Origin: a virus
Strand: one strand, 5' to 3'
DNA length: 64,000 nucleotides
Virus record (IMG/VR): IMGVR_UViG_2162886007_000107
Coordinates: 1 to 64,000 of that record
Positions 1-55,158 of the stretch are shown piece after piece (position 1 is the stretch's first letter; every line of letters starts with the position of its first letter). A model generated the notes under the pieces. It was given only the letters and a program-made list of their open reading frames with translations. It was not told the origin of the DNA and searched no databases. Position numbers and translations under genes: made by a program.

Positions 1-11
1 TTTTTTTTGCT

Positions 12-851
12 TTAGTTAATGCAAAGGTTGTGGGTAACAATCCAGTCTTCTACTACAAACAACTTATCTTCACTGTCGATATTAATGCAGATCGTTTCAG
101 TCGGGTGTTCTTTAACGATGCCAACAATCTTTAAGCGACTTGCTGCAAATCTGGCAATGTCGTCTTGCTCGATGTCTCGATGTCTGGCAGTAACTACATA
201 ACCGTCTTCAACCTTTTGAAGATCAGCAATACCGCCAACACTCCATGCCAGGTGTTGGAAGTTAAGAGCACTTTGTTTGTGCTCGGTAATGTAGCGAACA
301 GTACCGTTGCTTGCTACGCAGCCTTCATTGGTGCGCATGGCTGTAGCAATAGCTCGACGGTCCTGGTAATGAAGTTCTTGTATTTCACGGTTAACAGTAT
401 GACGTTCGCCAATTAGCATCATGGCAATGTCTTTAACAAATTCATCGGCAATACGTTTCTCCGCACCACTGATCTCACCAACCAGAGGGATGGCGTATTC
501 GAACTCATTGAAGTGAGCAATGATGTCGGCGGTGGTAGTAACGTACGGAGCAACACTATTACCCTCGTATACTTCCCAAAGATGCAACGGATGACTTACA
601 GCCTCACGTCCGTCCTCAAAGATGAACTTGTAGCAGTCTGTGACGCCCTGTGGGATTACTTCGGTCACTGAGGCTATGTTACCCATAGGACCAATGACCT
701 TACTGCCCTCACGCAGTTCCTTTAAAGCTAGCCAACCGCCAGGTACTTTTACCTTTACGTTGTACGGCATGGCTTTACCCTTGCTAACCATATTAAGCTT
801 AGGTTCGTTATTAACCTTTAACCCTACCATGGATTTTAAGAGGTTGATCAT
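12..851 (-). CDS. Orphan class-3-type intein (Hint domain) protein
   Basis: A 279-aa protein that is almost entirely an intein. A 26-residue leader ending in SKGK is followed by a Hint domain from about residue 27 to N275, and only four residues (LCIN) remain before the stop. Block G reads VTHN, with T273, H274 and N275. Residue 27 is Ala, not Cys or Ser. The class-3 signature is present instead: Trp in block B (HLW, W92), Cys in block F (C255) and Thr in block G (T273). The middle (about 130-210) looks like a decayed LAGLIDADG endonuclease. The +1 residue is Leu, which cannot act as the usual Ser/Thr/Cys nucleophile, so full splicing is doubtful and cleavage is more plausible. An AGGA ribosome site lies about 8 nt before the ATG. 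A run of eight A on the coding strand follows the stop at the window edge. It could be a broken gene whose downstream extein lies outside the window. Confidence 0.75.
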   Translation of the reverse strand: MINLLKSMVGLKVNNEPKLNMVSKGKAMPYNVKVKVPGGWLALKELREGSKVIGPMGNIASVTEVIPQGVTDCYKFIFEDGREAVSHPLHLWEVYEGNSVAPYVTTTADIIAHFNEFEYAIPLVGEISGAEKRIADEFVKDIAMMLIGERHTVNREIQELHYQDRRAIATAMRTNEGCVASNGTVRYITEHKQSALNFQHLAWSVGGIADLQKVEDGYVVTARHRDIEQDDIARFAASRLKIVGIVKEHPTETICINIDSEDKLFVVEDWIVTHNLCIN

Positions 852-1011
852 CGTTAATGTCCTACGGGGAAATTTAATGGTTTATCCATATTAATGTTGT
901 GGTGAAGCGCTACAGCGTTGTACAAAATTGATGCATTCATATTAATTCTTTTTGGTGCTGGAACATCGGCATTGAAACTATTCCCAAAAGCTCTACCACA
1001 AGGAAAGCAGC
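852..1011. promoter_or_regulatory. Divergent intergenic region between the intein gene and the 532-aa gene
   Basis: A 160-bp AT-rich gap from which both neighbours read outward. It contains repeated TATTAA elements near 890 and 941, and an AAGGAAAG ribosome site just before the ATG at 1012. Promoters for both genes are expected here, but no element matching the TATATTAC motif was found. Confidence 0.4.
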
Positions 1012-2610
1012 ATGTCTGAACAAGCCGATAAAAACATTGGTGAAGCGGTCGCAGAAACCGTTGCTCAGGATAACGAAGCAATTCGTGAAGTCTTGGGTAA
1101 GGATGATCCCTTTGTACAAGCATTGGACGTGAAAAACCGTCCGGTAATCGATGAGACCAAAAGCGGTCCTGTCTGTGGTTGCCCGGGCGTGATTCACGAG
1201 AATCCAGAATGCCAGTTGCCGGATGCAGCGGTGGTTGCATTGGCGGCTGCTAAAGACGTTAGCCTTGCTTTGGCTCAATACGAACACAATATGCCGGCAT
1301 ACTGGGTGAGCATGATGCGCTTGCCAGGCATGCAGTCGTTCTATCCGTTCCACGATCACAGTAAAACTGGCGATCTCGGCGGTCTGTCTCTGACCCGTGA
1401 TGACAGTCCTGAACAGGCTGCTTATCTGGAAGACTATCTGGACCCCAAGAATGTCGAACCGGCATTCAAGAAGTTCTGGTCGACCTTTATGCCAAACGCT
1501 CCACAAACCGGTGCGGTGTTCGTTTACTATGGCCTGGTCGGTGACACTGAGGTTGTTTACCTCCGTTATCAGCAGGATCATGTTCACCCAATGGAGTTCG
1601 TACTGCCTCGTGCTGAACTCACCTACTTCCTGCGTGGCTGGACTGAAGCGATCACCAGCGATCACATGCAGACTGAGATGGAAGACTGGTGCAAACATCC
1701 GACCGGGTACAAAGATCTCCAGAAGAAAGGCTACCGCTATAATGTGAGTGCCCTGGCTCTGGTTCTTCCTTTGAGCTACTTCTTCGCTGATGCCTTTGGC
1801 ATTAAAGAAGATCAGTTTGCAAACATGGTCAATGGTGATTTCAAGATTCTGGAAGACATCAAGAAAGAACTGTCCAATCGCTTCGACCGTTACGTTGCCG
1901 ATATCAGCCGCTTTGCCATCACCCTGAAGGACAAGGTCAAGTTCAAAGACCACAACCTGATGCTGGCGTTCAAGGGCACTGATGACTTCCGTGGTCTGGT
2001 TGTTTCCCTCGACAAGATCTATCCGAAGTTCCCTGAAGGCGGTCAGTACGAGTGTGGCGTCAATCCACTCAAACTGGAAGACTGGAAGACCGAGGGTGAT
2101 AACGTCAAGGTTGTTATCCGCAAGCTGATTCGCCTGTCGACGAAAGTCAACGACATGCTGAACAAGATGTACCGTGAACTGCCAAACAACAAATGGTGCG
2201 AAACCTGGTTGGATGGTTTGGTTCGTGAACGTCTGCTGGCTGCGAGCCACTTCCTGAAAGAGCTGTACCAGGCTAACCCTACTGACATCCGTCCATACGT
2301 GGAAGAGATGGCCAACAAGGTTCTGTCCGCTCTGAACGAACGTGGTGGCAACATCGGTCTCGATCTGACCAGCTGGGTCGTCTACCAGTACTTCGATAAC
2401 GGCAGTCCTCCTATCCCTGTGGTGGCGGAAGGTCTGAACTTCAAGCAAGAACTGTATAACCAGCACACCGAGCGTTTCATGGAAGTGCTGTATCAGTACC
2501 TGTTCCACGTGCGTAGCCCGTACATTCGTCCATACGTCCATAAGGTCGTAGCAGACAAGAATGACGGTATCCCTGTCGGCTCGATTCGTCCGGTCAACAA
2601 AGAAGAATAA
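1012..2610 (+). CDS. Unassigned, probable abundant virion protein (532 aa)
   Basis: No family was recognised. The strong AAGGAAAG ribosome site, heavy use of C- and G-ending codons and stand-alone position between a divergent region and a strong terminator suggest high expression, as for a structural protein. Residues 31-46 (DPFVQALDVKNRPVI) nearly repeat residues 20-34 of the tail tube protein at 43.4-44.3 kb, with 12 of 15 positions identical, so the two may share an assembly partner or an N-terminal arm. A Cys-Gly-Cys pair lies near residue 55. The remainder is mixed, with charged helical stretches, and has no signal peptide or membrane span. It is followed by a 15-bp hairpin shared with the convergent gene downstream. 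Confidence 0.7.
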   Translation: MSEQADKNIGEAVAETVAQDNEAIREVLGKDDPFVQALDVKNRPVIDETKSGPVCGCPGVIHENPECQLPDAAVVALAAAKDVSLALAQYEHNMPAYWVSMMRLPGMQSFYPFHDHSKTGDLGGLSLTRDDSPEQAAYLEDYLDPKNVEPAFKKFWSTFMPNAPQTGAVFVYYGLVGDTEVVYLRYQQDHVHPMEFVLPRAELTYFLRGWTEAITSDHMQTEMEDWCKHPTGYKDLQKKGYRYNVSALALVLPLSYFFADAFGIKEDQFANMVNGDFKILEDIKKELSNRFDRYVADISRFAITLKDKVKFKDHNLMLAFKGTDDFRGLVVSLDKIYPKFPEGGQYECGVNPLKLEDWKTEGDNVKVVIRKLIRLSTKVNDMLNKMYRELPNNKWCETWLDGLVRERLLAASHFLKELYQANPTDIRPYVEEMANKVLSALNERGGNIGLDLTSWVVYQYFDNGSPPIPVVAEGLNFKQELYNQHTERFMEVLYQYLFHVRSPYIRPYVHKVVADKNDGIPVGSIRPVNKEE

Positions 2611-2622
2611 ATAGTCCAGTCT

Positions 2623-2656
2623 TATACCCTACCAGCCCAGTGGCTGGTAGGGTATA
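2623..2656. terminator. Bidirectional hairpin terminator between convergent genes
   Basis: A perfect 15-bp stem (TATACCCTACCAGCC with its complement) and a 4-nt loop separate the plus gene ending at 2610 from the minus gene ending at 2663. The symmetry and position suggest termination from both sides. Confidence 0.8.
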
Positions 2657-2662
2657 GCTGGG

Positions 2663-3307
2663 TTATGGCTGCTTACCCAACCTGATGATATCAGCTTCCA
2701 GTTCAGCGATGTACACATGAGCTGCGGTCAGATCCTTCTCCAACTTCAATGCGCGAGCTGCATCGTTGTTGTTATCAGTGATCTTGCTTTTACGAAGAGT
2801 TTCATATGCATCGGCTTGATCCTTGGAAACATACCCAATGGTAGGGATGGTACCCAAGGAAACCGTTACAGGGATACCCACGTTGGCTTCTGTGTATTCC
2901 TTGATGTGTTGCAAGGTCAGAGCCAGTGTGTCTTTCATCGACGGAGGAACAGCACCAAAGCTAACAATAGCGCACATGTTCTCATAGCTTACGCCATCAA
3001 CCATCGGCCAGCTTTTGAGATACGTGGTAAGGACGTAAGTAGCTACGTCACTGCGATCCAGGAGACTAAGAACCTTGGCTCCTTTATCCCTGGCTCGTTG
3101 CAGTACTCTGGGGAAGTCCTCTACGGAAACGCCTACCGGTTTGAAGACCAACTCGTACAAGTCGAGTTTGAGAGACTCCATCTCGTGGAGGTTACGGATT
3201 GCTTCTACTTTGTAGTAGACGTCCGTTTTAACCACCGAATCAAATGGAGCCAGTGCTTCGAACCGGCCTCTGGCGTCAATAGACGGAATGATGTTGTTGT
3301 CTGCCAT
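2663..3307 (-). CDS. Unassigned protein (214 aa), operon with the 447-aa gene
   Basis: No family was recognised. It starts with MADNNIIPSIDARGRFEAL and is mostly predicted helix, with a C-terminal stretch (about 170-210) of alternating charged and hydrophobic residues that could form a coiled coil. There is no membrane span or signal peptide. The start lies 1-2 nt from the end of the upstream minus-strand gene, so the two are probably cotranscribed and translationally coupled. A virion role is inferred only from the structural-gene neighbourhood. Confidence 0.6.
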   Translation of the reverse strand: MADNNIIPSIDARGRFEALAPFDSVVKTDVYYKVEAIRNLHEMESLKLDLYELVFKPVGVSVEDFPRVLQRARDKGAKVLSLLDRSDVATYVLTTYLKSWPMVDGVSYENMCAIVSFGAVPPSMKDTLALTLQHIKEYTEANVGIPVTVSLGTIPTIGYVSKDQADAYETLRKSKITDNNNDAARALKLEKDLTAAHVYIAELEADIIRLGKQP

Positions 3308-3308
3308 A

Positions 3309-4652
3309 TCAGAGACCTTCTACTCCATCCTTCTGCATCTGCCAGCGAGTAAGTACCAGCAGTTTGGCTTTACCTACACGACGAGCAGCGTACATCTGAC
3401 CAAAACGCATTACACGAGTAATACCAGGCTGAGGCAGGCTGATATCAGTCATGACTTCGGCAGCAGCCAGGAGATCTTCCATGTTGCGGATGAACTCTTG
3501 AGTACTACGGGACAGCAGATCGAAGTCGCTATCCAGAGAAGAGATCAAGGAATAGTCAGGGTACAGGTTCAAAACCTTCTTCATGCCTTCGCGGTTATTC
3601 AACTTACCGACGATCGCCGTGTTCACGGACTTGTACATGAATGGCACGAACTGGGTGGATTTTATGACATGGTCAGTAGACATGTTTGGGGTAAGGAACT
3701 TATTGACCAGATCCATTCGTGTTTCGTTATCAGTGATCGGGCTGTAGTTACGAGCGCCGTTCGTTTTGTTCTCCAGGCCATAACGGTTGAAGAACGGGAT
3801 AACGTAGTACTCAATCGGGTTGAACAGATCAGGAATCTTTTCTTCCCACTTCGACAACGGGTATTGGGAGTCTTTGAGGATCTCGTTGCGCATTTGCTCA
3901 AAGAGTTGATCGTCAGAGTCTACACCATTACCCCACCACACATAGCGCCACCAGCCAGTAGTGGACATGCCAACGTTGGTGAGGTCCATCATCTCGAAAG
4001 AGATAGTCTCGCCATCGGTAACAGGCCACGCCGCGTTGTCAGTAACCGCATGCATGCGCTTGCTAATTACGTCAGGGGTTTCCTTCTTCAGACGTTCTTC
4101 CATTTGTTGGAAGTTCATCGGCATCAGGGAATCCATGTCTGCAAGTGCAACTGGGTGTACGATCGCAAAGGAGACCTTAGGGTATTCCCGCTTGAAGTAC
4201 TCGTCCGCAAACCAAAGATAGAAAAGCTGCTGCTCACCATCTACGAGATGGTTACCTGTTACGAAGCTGGGGAGCCAGTAACGATTGTTGGTAACCATTT
4301 CACCGATATCTTTAATCTCGATACCGTTAGAGAACTGAGCCTTGAGCAAAGCCAGAGTGTTGGGACGGTTGCCGGTGACGTTGCCTTTCTTGGCCTGATC
4401 CACCAGCCAGTTGCTGATTTCCAATTGCTTGTTAGCAATTGCAGTTGGCATCACAATCTCAACATCGTCTTCGATGCTCAAGAAGTTATGCAGTACCGAA
4501 GAACTAGGCTGATCGTTAAAAGCGAAGATGCCTTGGTCTTTGGAATACGTTTTCGACTTGTTGCTGATTTCACCGATGGGTGATACACTTTTTACCCCGT
4601 TATTGGCGAACTCGGCAATAGCCGCAAACGATAAATAGTTTTTAACACTCAT
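3309..4652 (-). CDS. Unassigned, probable virion protein (447 aa)
   Basis: The best start is the ATG at 4652, which has AGAGGT six nt upstream; a GTG two codons earlier has worse spacing. No family was recognised. The protein is soluble, with aromatic-rich segments in the middle (TGWWRYVWWGNG around residue 230) and a basic C-terminus (ARRVGKAKLLVLTRWQ). It is first in a two-gene minus-strand operon and lies only 33 bp from the divergent membrane-protein gene at 4686. A structural role is an inference from context. Confidence 0.65.
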   Translation of the reverse strand: MSVKNYLSFAAIAEFANNGVKSVSPIGEISNKSKTYSKDQGIFAFNDQPSSSVLHNFLSIEDDVEIVMPTAIANKQLEISNWLVDQAKKGNVTGNRPNTLALLKAQFSNGIEIKDIGEMVTNNRYWLPSFVTGNHLVDGEQQLFYLWFADEYFKREYPKVSFAIVHPVALADMDSLMPMNFQQMEERLKKETPDVISKRMHAVTDNAAWPVTDGETISFEMMDLTNVGMSTTGWWRYVWWGNGVDSDDQLFEQMRNEILKDSQYPLSKWEEKIPDLFNPIEYYVIPFFNRYGLENKTNGARNYSPITDNETRMDLVNKFLTPNMSTDHVIKSTQFVPFMYKSVNTAIVGKLNNREGMKKVLNLYPDYSLISSLDSDFDLLSRSTQEFIRNMEDLLAAAEVMTDISLPQPGITRVMRFGQMYAARRVGKAKLLVLTRWQMQKDGVEGL

Positions 4653-4685
4653 TGCCACACCTCTAACTAGTAAGGGACATACGTT

Positions 4686-51927: not shown

Positions 51928-54900
51928 ATGTCTTTGGACCGCTCTGAAATTCTGAAGATCGCTAAGGATATGCAGAATTACTTGGGGGCGCATTTACTTC
52001 CCAAGAAACTGATCGACGATGAATTGAACCTTGTCGACTCAGATGCCAGGACAGATGACGATACAGTTTTGGCGCATTTTGAAGAAGACAGTCTGCACGG
52101 TATCAAGACTGTTCGTTTTCTGAAAGACTTTGCTCGCTATCGAGCAACAGCTGACACAGAGACAAAGAACACCAGCTTTAAACGTACCGCAGAGATCTTC
52201 CGGCAACAGGGGATTAAGAACTATTTCTTCCTGTTGCAGTTGAACAACCCGATGCTCAAAGGTGTTGACCCTTACTCGGAGAATTTGACTAACGAGCAAG
52301 TTCTCTGGATTGCTGAGGAATGCCGGACCAACTTCTGGTACTTCCTTCGTGAGGTTTGTAAGGTTCGTGCTGACCGGTTCTTCCAAGCTAACCGCGGCAA
52401 CATCAGCTTTATCTGGAACTATCTGAACCACATCACCAGTTACATGATCATGCCTCGGCAGCAGGGTAAGTTCCAAGAGAACGAAACTCCTGTACGGATC
52501 ATTCCTCGTGAGATCGTTGGTAACACTAATCCTGCTGACCATTGGACAACTATTGGTCAGTTGCGCATCGGTGATCAGGTAGTAGACCATCACGGTGAGG
52601 CTAGTACTGTTATCGGTGTTCACCCACAAGGTAAAAAGCGTCTTTACAAGATTACCTTCAGTGACGGTCGTTCTACCAATGCTGGTGCTGAGCACTTGTG
52701 GTTAATTGGTGATCATTCGGATACTCTCAATGGAGAATGTATCTGGGACGAGAAGACCACCGCTGAATTGCTTTACAAGTGGCAGAACGGTGTCAAGATT
52801 GAACTGCCGTTGATCAAGCCTGAGGACAACTGCAAGAACAACTTCATCATCAAGCCTTACATCATGGGCCTGATGTTTGCAAACGAAGTTGTGGATGGAA
52901 AGATCTACGTAGATCCGATCAAGGAGATCACGGCTAATGTTCTGCGTCATGGCACACCTACTCATCTGACCTATCGGGTTGATAATGGTAGTCAGTACCT
53001 GGAACGGGCTGATAAATCGCCTCTGACCCTTAATCAGGAAGCTGGTCTCCCAGCAGACTACCTGGAAGGTTCTTTGCAGGACCGTAAGGACCTCTTAGAG
53101 GCGTTTCTACACAAATCTCGCACTACCTCTGAGGGTCGGTTCCTACCATCCTCTAACAACGTTCTAATGACTCAGATTCAATATCTGATTCGTGGCTTGG
53201 GCGGTACTGCCAAGAAAGTTGAAGGTGGGTTGCAGTTCACTCTGCAAGGCGATGCTGGTAACGAACTCTTCATTTCCGATATCAGTTATTTGGTCGATGC
53301 GGATTGTACTTGCATTGAGGTGGATAACGAGGAACATCTGTATTTGGCGGAAGACTTCATTGTCACGCACAACACAGTATCAGTTCAGGTAATTAACTTC
53401 TGGCTGACGTATATCAACGGCCGTGGTTACAAGACTCATGTCATTACCTTGAAGAGTGATAACCGTGCTCAGTTCATTGACGCGGTTAAACGGATGAGGG
53501 CCTGTGTTCCTAAGTATTTGGTTAACTCCACGTACAAGGACAAGGACGCAGGTACTTATCTAACGTATAAAGCTTTTGGTGATGAGCTGGTAAACACCTT
53601 AACCATTAGCGTTCCTCAGATCGGTAAGGATGCCGCGGGGGACATGGGTCGTGGTTTGACGGTAGGGACAACCTTCCTCGACGAACCGGCCTACATTTCG
53701 TGGATCGAGGAAATCGTCAACGGCGCGATGCCTTCTGCTTTGACAGAGATGGAGTTGATGAGGGCCAACGGGTTGCCGTACGGGATTGGTTACATTACAA
53801 CACCAAACACAACTCTGCACCCATCTGGCGACTACATGTTCAAGAAACTCATGTCTGCTACCGAGTGGCGTGAGAAGTTCTTTGATTCGTACAGTGAGAG
53901 TCATCTCAAAGACAGGCTCATTCGGGCTTCTCCAGAGAAGACGACCAGTCCGGCGATCAGCATGGTTTACAACTACATGCAGCTTGGCAAGAACAAGGAC
54001 TGGGTGAAGCGAACCATTGACGATCTGAAACTTAGTTTGTCTAAGGCTAAGATCGACTTGCTGTTGATGTGGGTTGAAGATGGCGAGAACCGATTGTTTG
54101 ACGACCTTACTCGTGAAGCGATCAGTAACGTTAAACGACAACCAGTGTGGAGTAAAGAGTATCGGAACAGTGGGTTGTTCATGGACTTCTTCTGTACCCA
54201 GGAAGAGTTAATCCGAATGGGCAAGAAAGAGTACAACGATCACTTCCTTATTGGGGTCGATACCTCCTCCGCTATCAACAAGGACGCCTGTACGCTCATC
54301 ATTCGCTCTATGAAGACTGGTAAGGTCATTGGCGTAGGTCGCTATGCCCTGGCTATGCTGGACGACGTTACAGCGATTATTGTGGACATGCTGGAAACCT
54401 TGCAAAACAGTCTGTTGGTCATTGAACGTAACTACGCTCACCACATGATCGATAGTCTGCTGATCCTTCTGCCTGCAAAAGGCATGGATCCATTCATGCG
54501 TATCTACAATCAGGTTTACCAAAGCCCGATTGACCATCAGAAAGAACTGGAGCTAGTGCAGTCAACCAAGTTCGCCTACAGAGATAAGAACTTCTACCTG
54601 AAGCTCAAGCATCTGTTTGGTTTCGTTACCACTGCTAACTCTCGGAAGATTCTGTATGGCTTGATTCAAGAAGCCGTGGCTGTGACTGGTTATGGTATCA
54701 ATTACGACAAGTTGGCTGATGAACTGATTAACCTCAGGACTAAGGGCGACCGTATTGACCACGACGCGAAACAGCACGATGACTTGGTAATCGCATGGCT
54801 GCTCACTTACTGGTTCATTAAGCTGGGTGCTAACAAACCGTTCTACGGAATCATGGGTGCGTTGGCTCTTAGCGATACACAGAACCTGTTGGATGCTGGC

Positions 54901-55158
54901 AAAGAAAGTAAACAGGCTCCGATGGATCCGAGTATCAAACTGTTCTTTGAACAAGTAAGGTTGAAAATCAATAACCTTACCGAGGAGCTGCTGCGTACTA
55001 CGGACAACATCCTGGCACTGCGGTTGGAAGCAGAGATTATGAAGTACTCTAAACTCCTGCCCCCAGAAACTGCCAAGCTGCTTACTATCGATACATTGCT
55101 GGAAAAGGCGCGTCTCGAAAGAACGCGTCGAGTTATGGAAAACAGAAGAGCAGCATAA
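51928..55158 (+). CDS. Large terminase subunit with an intein in its Walker A motif
   Basis: A 1,076-aa precursor, of which 775 residues are the phiKZ gp25-like packaging motor. ATPase motifs are RQQGK (K181) then T483 (split Walker A), Walker B FLDEP (D585, E586), and the ITTPN coupling segment. The nuclease domain has GVDTSS (D778), LVIERN (E833) and HDDLVIAW (D951/D952), an RNase H-like set that cuts the genome at each packaging end. Residues 182-482 are an intein (separate entry) that must be removed to restore GKT. Without splicing the motor cannot bind ATP. The gene is preceded by GGGG nine nt before the ATG and ends at a strong hairpin. The start at 51928 is preferred because the longer frame runs through the previous gene. 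Confidence 0.88.
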   Translation: MSLDRSEILKIAKDMQNYLGAHLLPKKLIDDELNLVDSDARTDDDTVLAHFEEDSLHGIKTVRFLKDFARYRATADTETKNTSFKRTAEIFRQQGIKNYFFLLQLNNPMLKGVDPYSENLTNEQVLWIAEECRTNFWYFLREVCKVRADRFFQANRGNISFIWNYLNHITSYMIMPRQQGKFQENETPVRIIPREIVGNTNPADHWTTIGQLRIGDQVVDHHGEASTVIGVHPQGKKRLYKITFSDGRSTNAGAEHLWLIGDHSDTLNGECIWDEKTTAELLYKWQNGVKIELPLIKPEDNCKNNFIIKPYIMGLMFANEVVDGKIYVDPIKEITANVLRHGTPTHLTYRVDNGSQYLERADKSPLTLNQEAGLPADYLEGSLQDRKDLLEAFLHKSRTTSEGRFLPSSNNVLMTQIQYLIRGLGGTAKKVEGGLQFTLQGDAGNELFISDISYLVDADCTCIEVDNEEHLYLAEDFIVTHNTVSVQVINFWLTYINGRGYKTHVITLKSDNRAQFIDAVKRMRACVPKYLVNSTYKDKDAGTYLTYKAFGDELVNTLTISVPQIGKDAAGDMGRGLTVGTTFLDEPAYISWIEEIVNGAMPSALTEMELMRANGLPYGIGYITTPNTTLHPSGDYMFKKLMSATEWREKFFDSYSESHLKDRLIRASPEKTTSPAISMVYNYMQLGKNKDWVKRTIDDLKLSLSKAKIDLLLMWVEDGENRLFDDLTREAISNVKRQPVWSKEYRNSGLFMDFFCTQEELIRMGKKEYNDHFLIGVDTSSAINKDACTLIIRSMKTGKVIGVGRYALAMLDDVTAIIVDMLETLQNSLLVIERNYAHHMIDSLLILLPAKGMDPFMRIYNQVYQSPIDHQKELELVQSTKFAYRDKNFYLKLKHLFGFVTTANSRKILYGLIQEAVAVTGYGINYDKLADELINLRTKGDRIDHDAKQHDDLVIAWLLTYWFIKLGANKPFYGIMGALALSDTQNLLDAGKESKQAPMDPSIKLFFEQVRLKINNLTEELLRTTDNILALRLEAEIMKYSKLLPPETAKLLTIDTLLEKARLERTRRVMENRRAA
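52471..53373 (+). other. Class-3-type intein inside the terminase P-loop (301 aa)
   Basis: The intein lies exactly between Lys181 and Thr483 of the Walker A motif (QQGK, then T). It starts with Phe, not a nucleophile. Block B has HLW (W258), block F has Cys (C462 in CTCIEV), and block G has VTHN (T480, N482). Trp-Cys-Thr is the class 3 signature, in which the block F Cys replaces the N-terminal nucleophile. The +1 residue Thr is suitable for splicing. The central YIMGLMFANEV segment (about 311-321) looks like a decayed LAGLIDADG endonuclease motif, so homing is probably lost. Confidence 0.8.

Follow-up and report, generated by a model that had tools for sequence, protein, structure and literature searches.

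Results

A stand-alone class 3 intein at the start of a phage record

The first gene in the 64,000-nucleotide stretch of viral DNA analysed here (the window, bases 1–64000 of the 236,430-bp IMG/VR virus record IMGVR_UViG_2162886007_000107, which is classed as linear) encodes an intein that is almost bare of flanking protein. The open reading frame (ORF) of this orphan intein starts with ATG, comprises 279 codons and ends ...DWIVTHNLCIN-stop (Table 1). An initial annotation, made from the letters alone, had described a class-3-like intein with the Trp-Cys-Thr (WCT) signature W92, C255 and T273, a ribosome site, a start codon and nothing but LCIN after Asn275; all of these features are in place.

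Trp B:12, Cys F:4 and Thr G:5 of class 3 inteins are present as Trp92, Cys255 and Thr273, and His B:10 as His90. The first intein residue, Ala27, follows SKGK and is, as expected for class 3, other than Cys, Ser or Thr, and the intein closes with His274-Asn275. Two class 3 attributes are missing. Position +1 is Leu276 rather than Ser, Thr or Cys, and the flanks (26 and 4 amino acids, with the helicase absent) provide no interrupted host protein whose halves could be joined. Because of the Leu at +1 the orphan is predicted to be unable to splice, and the view of the initial annotation that this residue cannot serve as an acceptor is upheld.

The orphan is 35% identical to the inteins of phage EL and its kin across residues 25–275 (251 amino acids; E down to 7e-41), with helicase ('DNA helicase / DarB-like') inteins as the best named matches. 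A family profile matched the solved inteins gp41-1 (6riz, E 1e-18) and 6bs8 (3e-14), and among its matches are mycobacterial DnaB class 3 inteins (6bs8, 6rix, 6riy). Given this homology and these profile matches, assignment to the Hint fold is beyond chance, and it agrees with the initial annotation. Pfam and NCBIfam scans of the single orphan protein returned no informative match.

Table 1. Features at the left end of the window, with the basis for each call or a remark
Feature	Positions	Strand	Basis or remark
T8 at record start (A8 on the coding strand)	1..8	.	other record end also T8, preceded by hairpin CCTACTCTTAGCCCTGAGGCTAAGAGTAGG
Stand-alone class 3 intein gene (orphan intein), 279 aa	12..851	-	ORF, homology, catalytic residues
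Residual 'C-extein' Leu-Cys-Ile-Asn, then TAA at 12-14	15..26	-	ORF translation
Intein proper, Ala27-Asn275, 249 aa	27..773	-	alignment
Insert between Hint halves, about residues 96-240	132..566	-	alignment to LAGLIDADG inteins
N-peptide, 26 residues, MINLLKSMVGLKVNNEPKLNMVSKGK	774..851	-	start M-I-N-L-L resembles helicase M[LF]NLF
Shine-Dalgarno-like AGGA, 8 nt 5' of ATG	860..863	-	counterpart of the AAGGAC element preceding the helicase or orphan start in several relatives
Divergent neighbour, EL gp167 / RisingSun gp212 homologue	1012..2610	+	synteny marker of the helicase locus
Conserved small gene, EL gp168	2663..3307	-	synteny marker for finding relatives
Virion structural protein, EL gp169, PHROG 3293	3309..4658	-	synteny marker for the phage tree

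The orphan occupies a helicase locus from which the exteins are missing

Beside the orphan, homologues of EL gp167, gp168 and gp169 stand in the same order as beside the EL helicase gene gp166 and the intein-free RisingSun helicase gene gp211. Because these neighbours match, the orphan can be placed in the helicase locus and in helicase orientation. Comparison with related phages, the route to the host gene that the initial annotation had proposed, recovered an EL-type SNF2/DarB-like helicase. Its junctions in EL (slashes mark the intein borders) read GSGK/AMPL...VTHN/TFTSLAW, as against SKGK/AMPY...VTHN/LCIN-stop in the orphan, and the final GK of the N-peptide resembles the GSGK that forms Walker A in the lost N-extein.

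Neither helicase extein occurs anywhere in the 236-kb record. Queries with the EL helicase and with the helicase C-extein matched inteins only, and the same kind of query recovered the helicase in control phages. Since the intein is complete and no extein match occurs elsewhere in the record, the ORF is not part of a split intein or fractured gene. Truncation of an intact helicase by the assembly was rejected, as the contig continues past the expected place of the N-extein without containing it, with only 160 bp between the orphan and the next gene, and sister phages carry the same structure in mid-contig.

The initial annotation had also raised the possibility that a C-extein is reached by frameshifting at the A8 tract just past the stop. 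The tract is real, but it is the first base run of the record, whose other end is also T8 (record start, TTTTTTTTGC; record end, ...ATTCTTTTTTTT). A tail-gene block and small plus-strand genes at the far end correspond to EL genes adjoining the helicase, and homologues of the last small gene (52 amino acids) lie directly past the orphan in L047, in convergent orientation (45%), and downstream of the L051 helicase (55%). Because gene order is collinear with that of the relatives EL, L025 and L026, the two record ends are adjacent, although collinearity does not fix the exact length of the T-run at the joined ends. Beyond the orphan stop lie the A-run, a terminator hairpin (CCTACTCTTAGCC-TCAG-GGCTAAGAGTAGG) and then convergent genes, and the sister orphans have the same layout, an A-rich spacer and then a hairpin, 3' of their stops. 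Reading leftward for a C-extein in another frame, as had been advised, meets all three frames closed across the joined ends. A C-extein located in another frame or place, through frameshifting at A8, trans-splicing or a split helicase, would be in keeping with a tract that adjoins both the stop and the record end; given the adjacent ends, the terminator with its convergent genes and the lack of either helicase extein in the record, we consider it extremely improbable.

The record itself (L003:19792-20000 at its end compared with window positions 1–8) is probably a complete genome opened at the homopolymer.

Stand-alone copies have arisen repeatedly in related phages

To survey the locus, IMG/VR was scanned with the synteny markers and hence without bias towards the intein, which gave 18 and 25 loci; scans with an intein profile added more. 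Alignments were needed as queries, as IMG/VR scans with the single orphan or the single structural protein gave no matches, nor did a scan of genome contigs with the structural protein. At the helicase locus, 15 records carry a helicase with the intein, three outlying records (RisingSun, L039, L125) a helicase without it, and six records in four lineages (the window; L024/L025; L034/L035; L129) the intein alone. Among fully visible loci inside the intein-bearing clade none lacks both genes; L118 and L131 are truncated where their contigs end.

All six stand-alone ORFs are intact and retain the N-side catalytic residues. His90, Trp92, Cys255 and Thr273 are invariant in all aligned helicase-locus inteins, every orphan included, whereas the +1 residue, always Thr in intact inteins, is Leu, Gly, Ser or absent in the orphans. 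The tails end ...LVTHN/GEC-stop in L024/L025 and ...VVTHN/SFS-stop in L034/L035, where the N-peptide MVNIFASGK retains the Walker A SGK. The orphan of L129 (L129:10202-11059) ends ...IVTR-stop; it keeps His B:10 and the W, C and T residues and has lost the penultimate His and terminal Asn.

In a phage tree built from the structural protein and the gp168 homologue, L026 (intact) and L024/L025 (orphan) join the window's phage in one group, L034/L035 are sister to six intact phages, and L129 stands apart; to fit the branches that are well supported, the orphan state must have changed three times or more. The groups reappear, less well supported, in the intein tree, and a tree of helicase exteins from the intact phages agrees with the phage tree. 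Since the intein and helicase trees both mirror phage descent, they do not favour a scenario in which a phage regained its helicase or an orphan spread sideways; as judged from these trees, the exteins were most likely lost three or four times independently.

The route of loss has left possible traces. The ancestral intein would have sat in the Walker A loop (GSGK/intein/T) of an SNF2-type helicase. In the nearest relatives the intact helicase begins with M[LF]NLF; the orphans begin with M-V-N-I-F (L035), M-L-N-L (L129) and M-I-N-L-L (the window). Several phages, some with an orphan and some intact, have an AAGGAC-type ribosome site ahead of the start. These resemblances are suggestive, without being proof, of an in-frame deletion of the N-extein, beginning near codon 6 and reaching the Walker A motif, which would have kept the native ribosome site, the start and the first few codons. 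The C-extein would have been removed by truncation after the intein, and related phages would have followed the same course independently. When N-peptides were compared with the helicase, the scores of most shuffled sequences were exceeded only by L035 and L025, of which the latter matches a different part of the N-extein.

Purifying selection acts on stand-alone copies of two sister lineages

Because both members of each close pair stand alone, the differences between them post-date extein loss. The L024/L025 orphans differ by 16 synonymous and no nonsynonymous changes (neutral chance 1e-8) and the L034/L035 orphans by seven and two (P 0.004), where the neutral expectation uses the observed transition/transversion bias. 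Omega is about 0–0.08 in these sister orphans. In intact phages it is 0.04–0.11 for the intein, 0.05–0.14 for the insert and 0.06–0.08 for the helicase C-extein, which puts the constraint on the insert at roughly the level of the helicase. No relaxation of rates was seen in the intein tree.

These values bear on whether the ORF is a decaying relic, left by a recent helicase loss and pending erasure. The known precedent is Arth_1007 of Arthrobacter FB24, a class 3 intein of phage origin that has 66 amino acids of exteins and is inactive (PMC3196547). The missing exteins and splice acceptor and the loss of His-Asn in L129 fit such decay, and that part of the relic reading in the initial annotation, that the exteins are gone, stands; the other part does not fit a family whose stand-alone members are strongly selected and arose repeatedly. 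The synonymous excess strongly disfavours decay for L024/L025. All six ORFs remain open with their N-side residues across at least three independent lineages, and, unlike Arth_1007, a pseudogene that has lost His B:10 and Cys F:4, the phage orphans keep both. With its catalytic residues retained and its sisters selected, the orphan does not resemble an intein pseudogene, and we regard decay as unlikely.

The insert is an endonuclease remnant

The second part of the insert, about residues 158–208, aligns with the part of endonuclease-bearing inteins that carries the LAGLIDADG motif, and a profile alignment to LAGLIDADG inteins spans the whole intein (hhalign probability 100, E 5.6e-48); Pfam LAGLIDADG gave no match. 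The second motif, LDTDG, reads RTNEG in the orphan, so that D-D-G is gone, and the first motif and half are largely deleted. The two LAGLIDADG motifs with acidic residues of a homing endonuclease are lacking, and the insert is predicted from its sequence to be a dead endonuclease remnant. That this dead part is nevertheless constrained suggests a requirement of the fold or another function.

Discussion

Predicted activity

The orphan is probably expressed, and would be translated as N-peptide, Hint domain and LCIN. By analogy with other class 3 inteins, the Cys255-His90-Thr273 triad with Trp92 would attack the Lys26-Ala27 bond (PMC7664689). The N-junction of class 3 inteins is hydrolysed when the +1 nucleophile is absent (PMC7664689), and by the same chemistry water would then free the N-peptide, leaving a mature protein with Ala27 as its first residue. 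Cleavage on the C-terminal side is closely coupled to the steps that precede it (PMC5222942). The predicted activity is single-turnover N-terminal self-cleavage in place of splicing, and the 'cleaving protein' put forward by the initial annotation remains the most plausible chemistry. Could the short flanks instead still be spliced, with the N-peptide ligated to the C-tail as a micropeptide and the intein acting as its maturation device? L034/L035 retain both a +1 Ser (MVNIFASGK-SFS) and His-Asn, as this would require, but other lineages have Leu, Gly or nothing at +1, and neither N-peptides nor tails are conserved between lineages, which makes such a precursor very unlikely.

A proposed splicing-independent role

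We think it fairly probable that the orphan is a free-standing, selected class 3 intein, unable to splice in the window's phage, that has a splicing-independent role. What is selected would be the intein protein itself, Hint domain and endonuclease-derived insert together; splicing, homing and, in L129, the His-Asn would not be required. Since the insert is similarly constrained in helicase-bearing phages, the role probably already existed in the spliced-out intein and so pre-dates helicase loss; at least three independent retentions argue for the same. Binding of nucleic acid or protein by the insert would be one example of such a role. A more tentative proposal is that in EL-like jumbo phages the excised helicase intein serves as a trans-acting phage protein, and that where the helicase became dispensable all but the intein was deleted.

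Selection on the stand-alone copies would equally be expected if a role had been gained only after helicase loss, or if selection concerned the fold alone, the spliced-out intein having no role in helicase-bearing phages. The similar constraint on the insert in intact phages speaks against this, and we hold it to be quite unlikely.

Several points weigh against a selected, splicing-independent role for the orphan. Selection was measured on sister orphans, and the window's ORF is without a close relative. Constraint on the insert could come solely from the need of the Hint fold for it. Retention of the N-side residues is unexceptional in itself, as 41 of the 51 sites that do not vary among intact inteins do not vary among orphans either. 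Finally, the likeness between the N-peptide of the window's ORF and the beginning of the helicase, taken alone, falls short of significance.

Relation to known systems

The nearest counterparts are the EL gp166 helicase intein and its relatives, which share with the orphan the locus, the insertion point GK/A...HN/, WCT, the B:10 His and a degenerate insert at 35–48% identity; the EL-type helicase differs in its full N-extein (149 amino acids), C-extein (about 525 amino acids) and Thr +1, whereas the orphan is without both exteins. Bacterial intein-like (BIL) domains, which lack an endonuclease and reside in larger, variable bacterial proteins, are Hint domains that cleave rather than splice, as predicted for the orphan. 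The orphan differs from them in its class 3 residues and its descent from the intein of a phage helicase, an origin that makes its identity as a BIL domain unlikely. The MchDnaB1 and Msm DnaB class 3 inteins (PMC7664689; 6bs8) have the same Cys-His-Thr triad and Trp and match the profile, but they splice replicative helicases in mycobacteria. Yeast HO endonuclease and WHO elements (PMC7282813) are likewise independently expressed, stand-alone intein-type genes without exteins or splicing; HO, however, has a zinc finger and is active as a LAGLIDADG endonuclease, whereas the orphan's motif is degenerate and no extra domain was seen.

We found no paper on orphan or stand-alone inteins among the open-access papers searched, although an earlier report in subscription journals is possible. 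The dead pseudogene Arth_1007 is the sole comparable prokaryotic case (class 3, nearly exteinless) that we found there, and a recurrent, selected, stand-alone, endonuclease-dead phage class 3 intein matches neither it nor HO. Inteins are mostly viewed as parasites, or at most as switches for the proteins that carry them; the question is whether any of them has value in its own right. These phages offer a natural deletion experiment, run several times, in which the host protein was removed and the intein retained. Selection on the stand-alone copies makes the question of an intein's own function testable in phage EL. If the proposed role is correct, this would be an intein with a function independent of splicing, reduced in nature to a Hint protein that stands alone and cleaves itself at its N-terminus.

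Other inteins and minor observations

The other WCT-bearing Hint domain that the initial annotation had noted in the window is a class-3-type intein (about 52480–53371) in the ORF of the terminase large subunit (TerL; 51928–55158, plus strand). It sits between PRQQGK and TVSV, and its first residue is apparently Phe. Origin of the orphan from this intein was rejected, as the two share 24% identity compared with 35–48% between the orphan and helicase inteins. At least three class-3-type inteins per genome occur in several relatives (L028, L026, L035, L049, L037), at the helicase locus, in an ORF of ~770–830 amino acids and in one of ~1100 amino acids; the window's record has two.

Near the record end, L003:12587-16168 (minus strand) encodes a 1193-amino-acid tail-fibre-like protein with many collagen-like G-x-x-G stretches. 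An Rfam search of positions 1–3000 gave no match, and the EL promoter motif had no match upstream of the orphan and occurred across the window at chance level. The 160-bp gap upstream of the orphan holds two copies of ATTAATATG[G/A]AT (884–895 and 935–946, minus strand), 51 bp apart; these are the only two in the window and may be operator or phage promoter elements.
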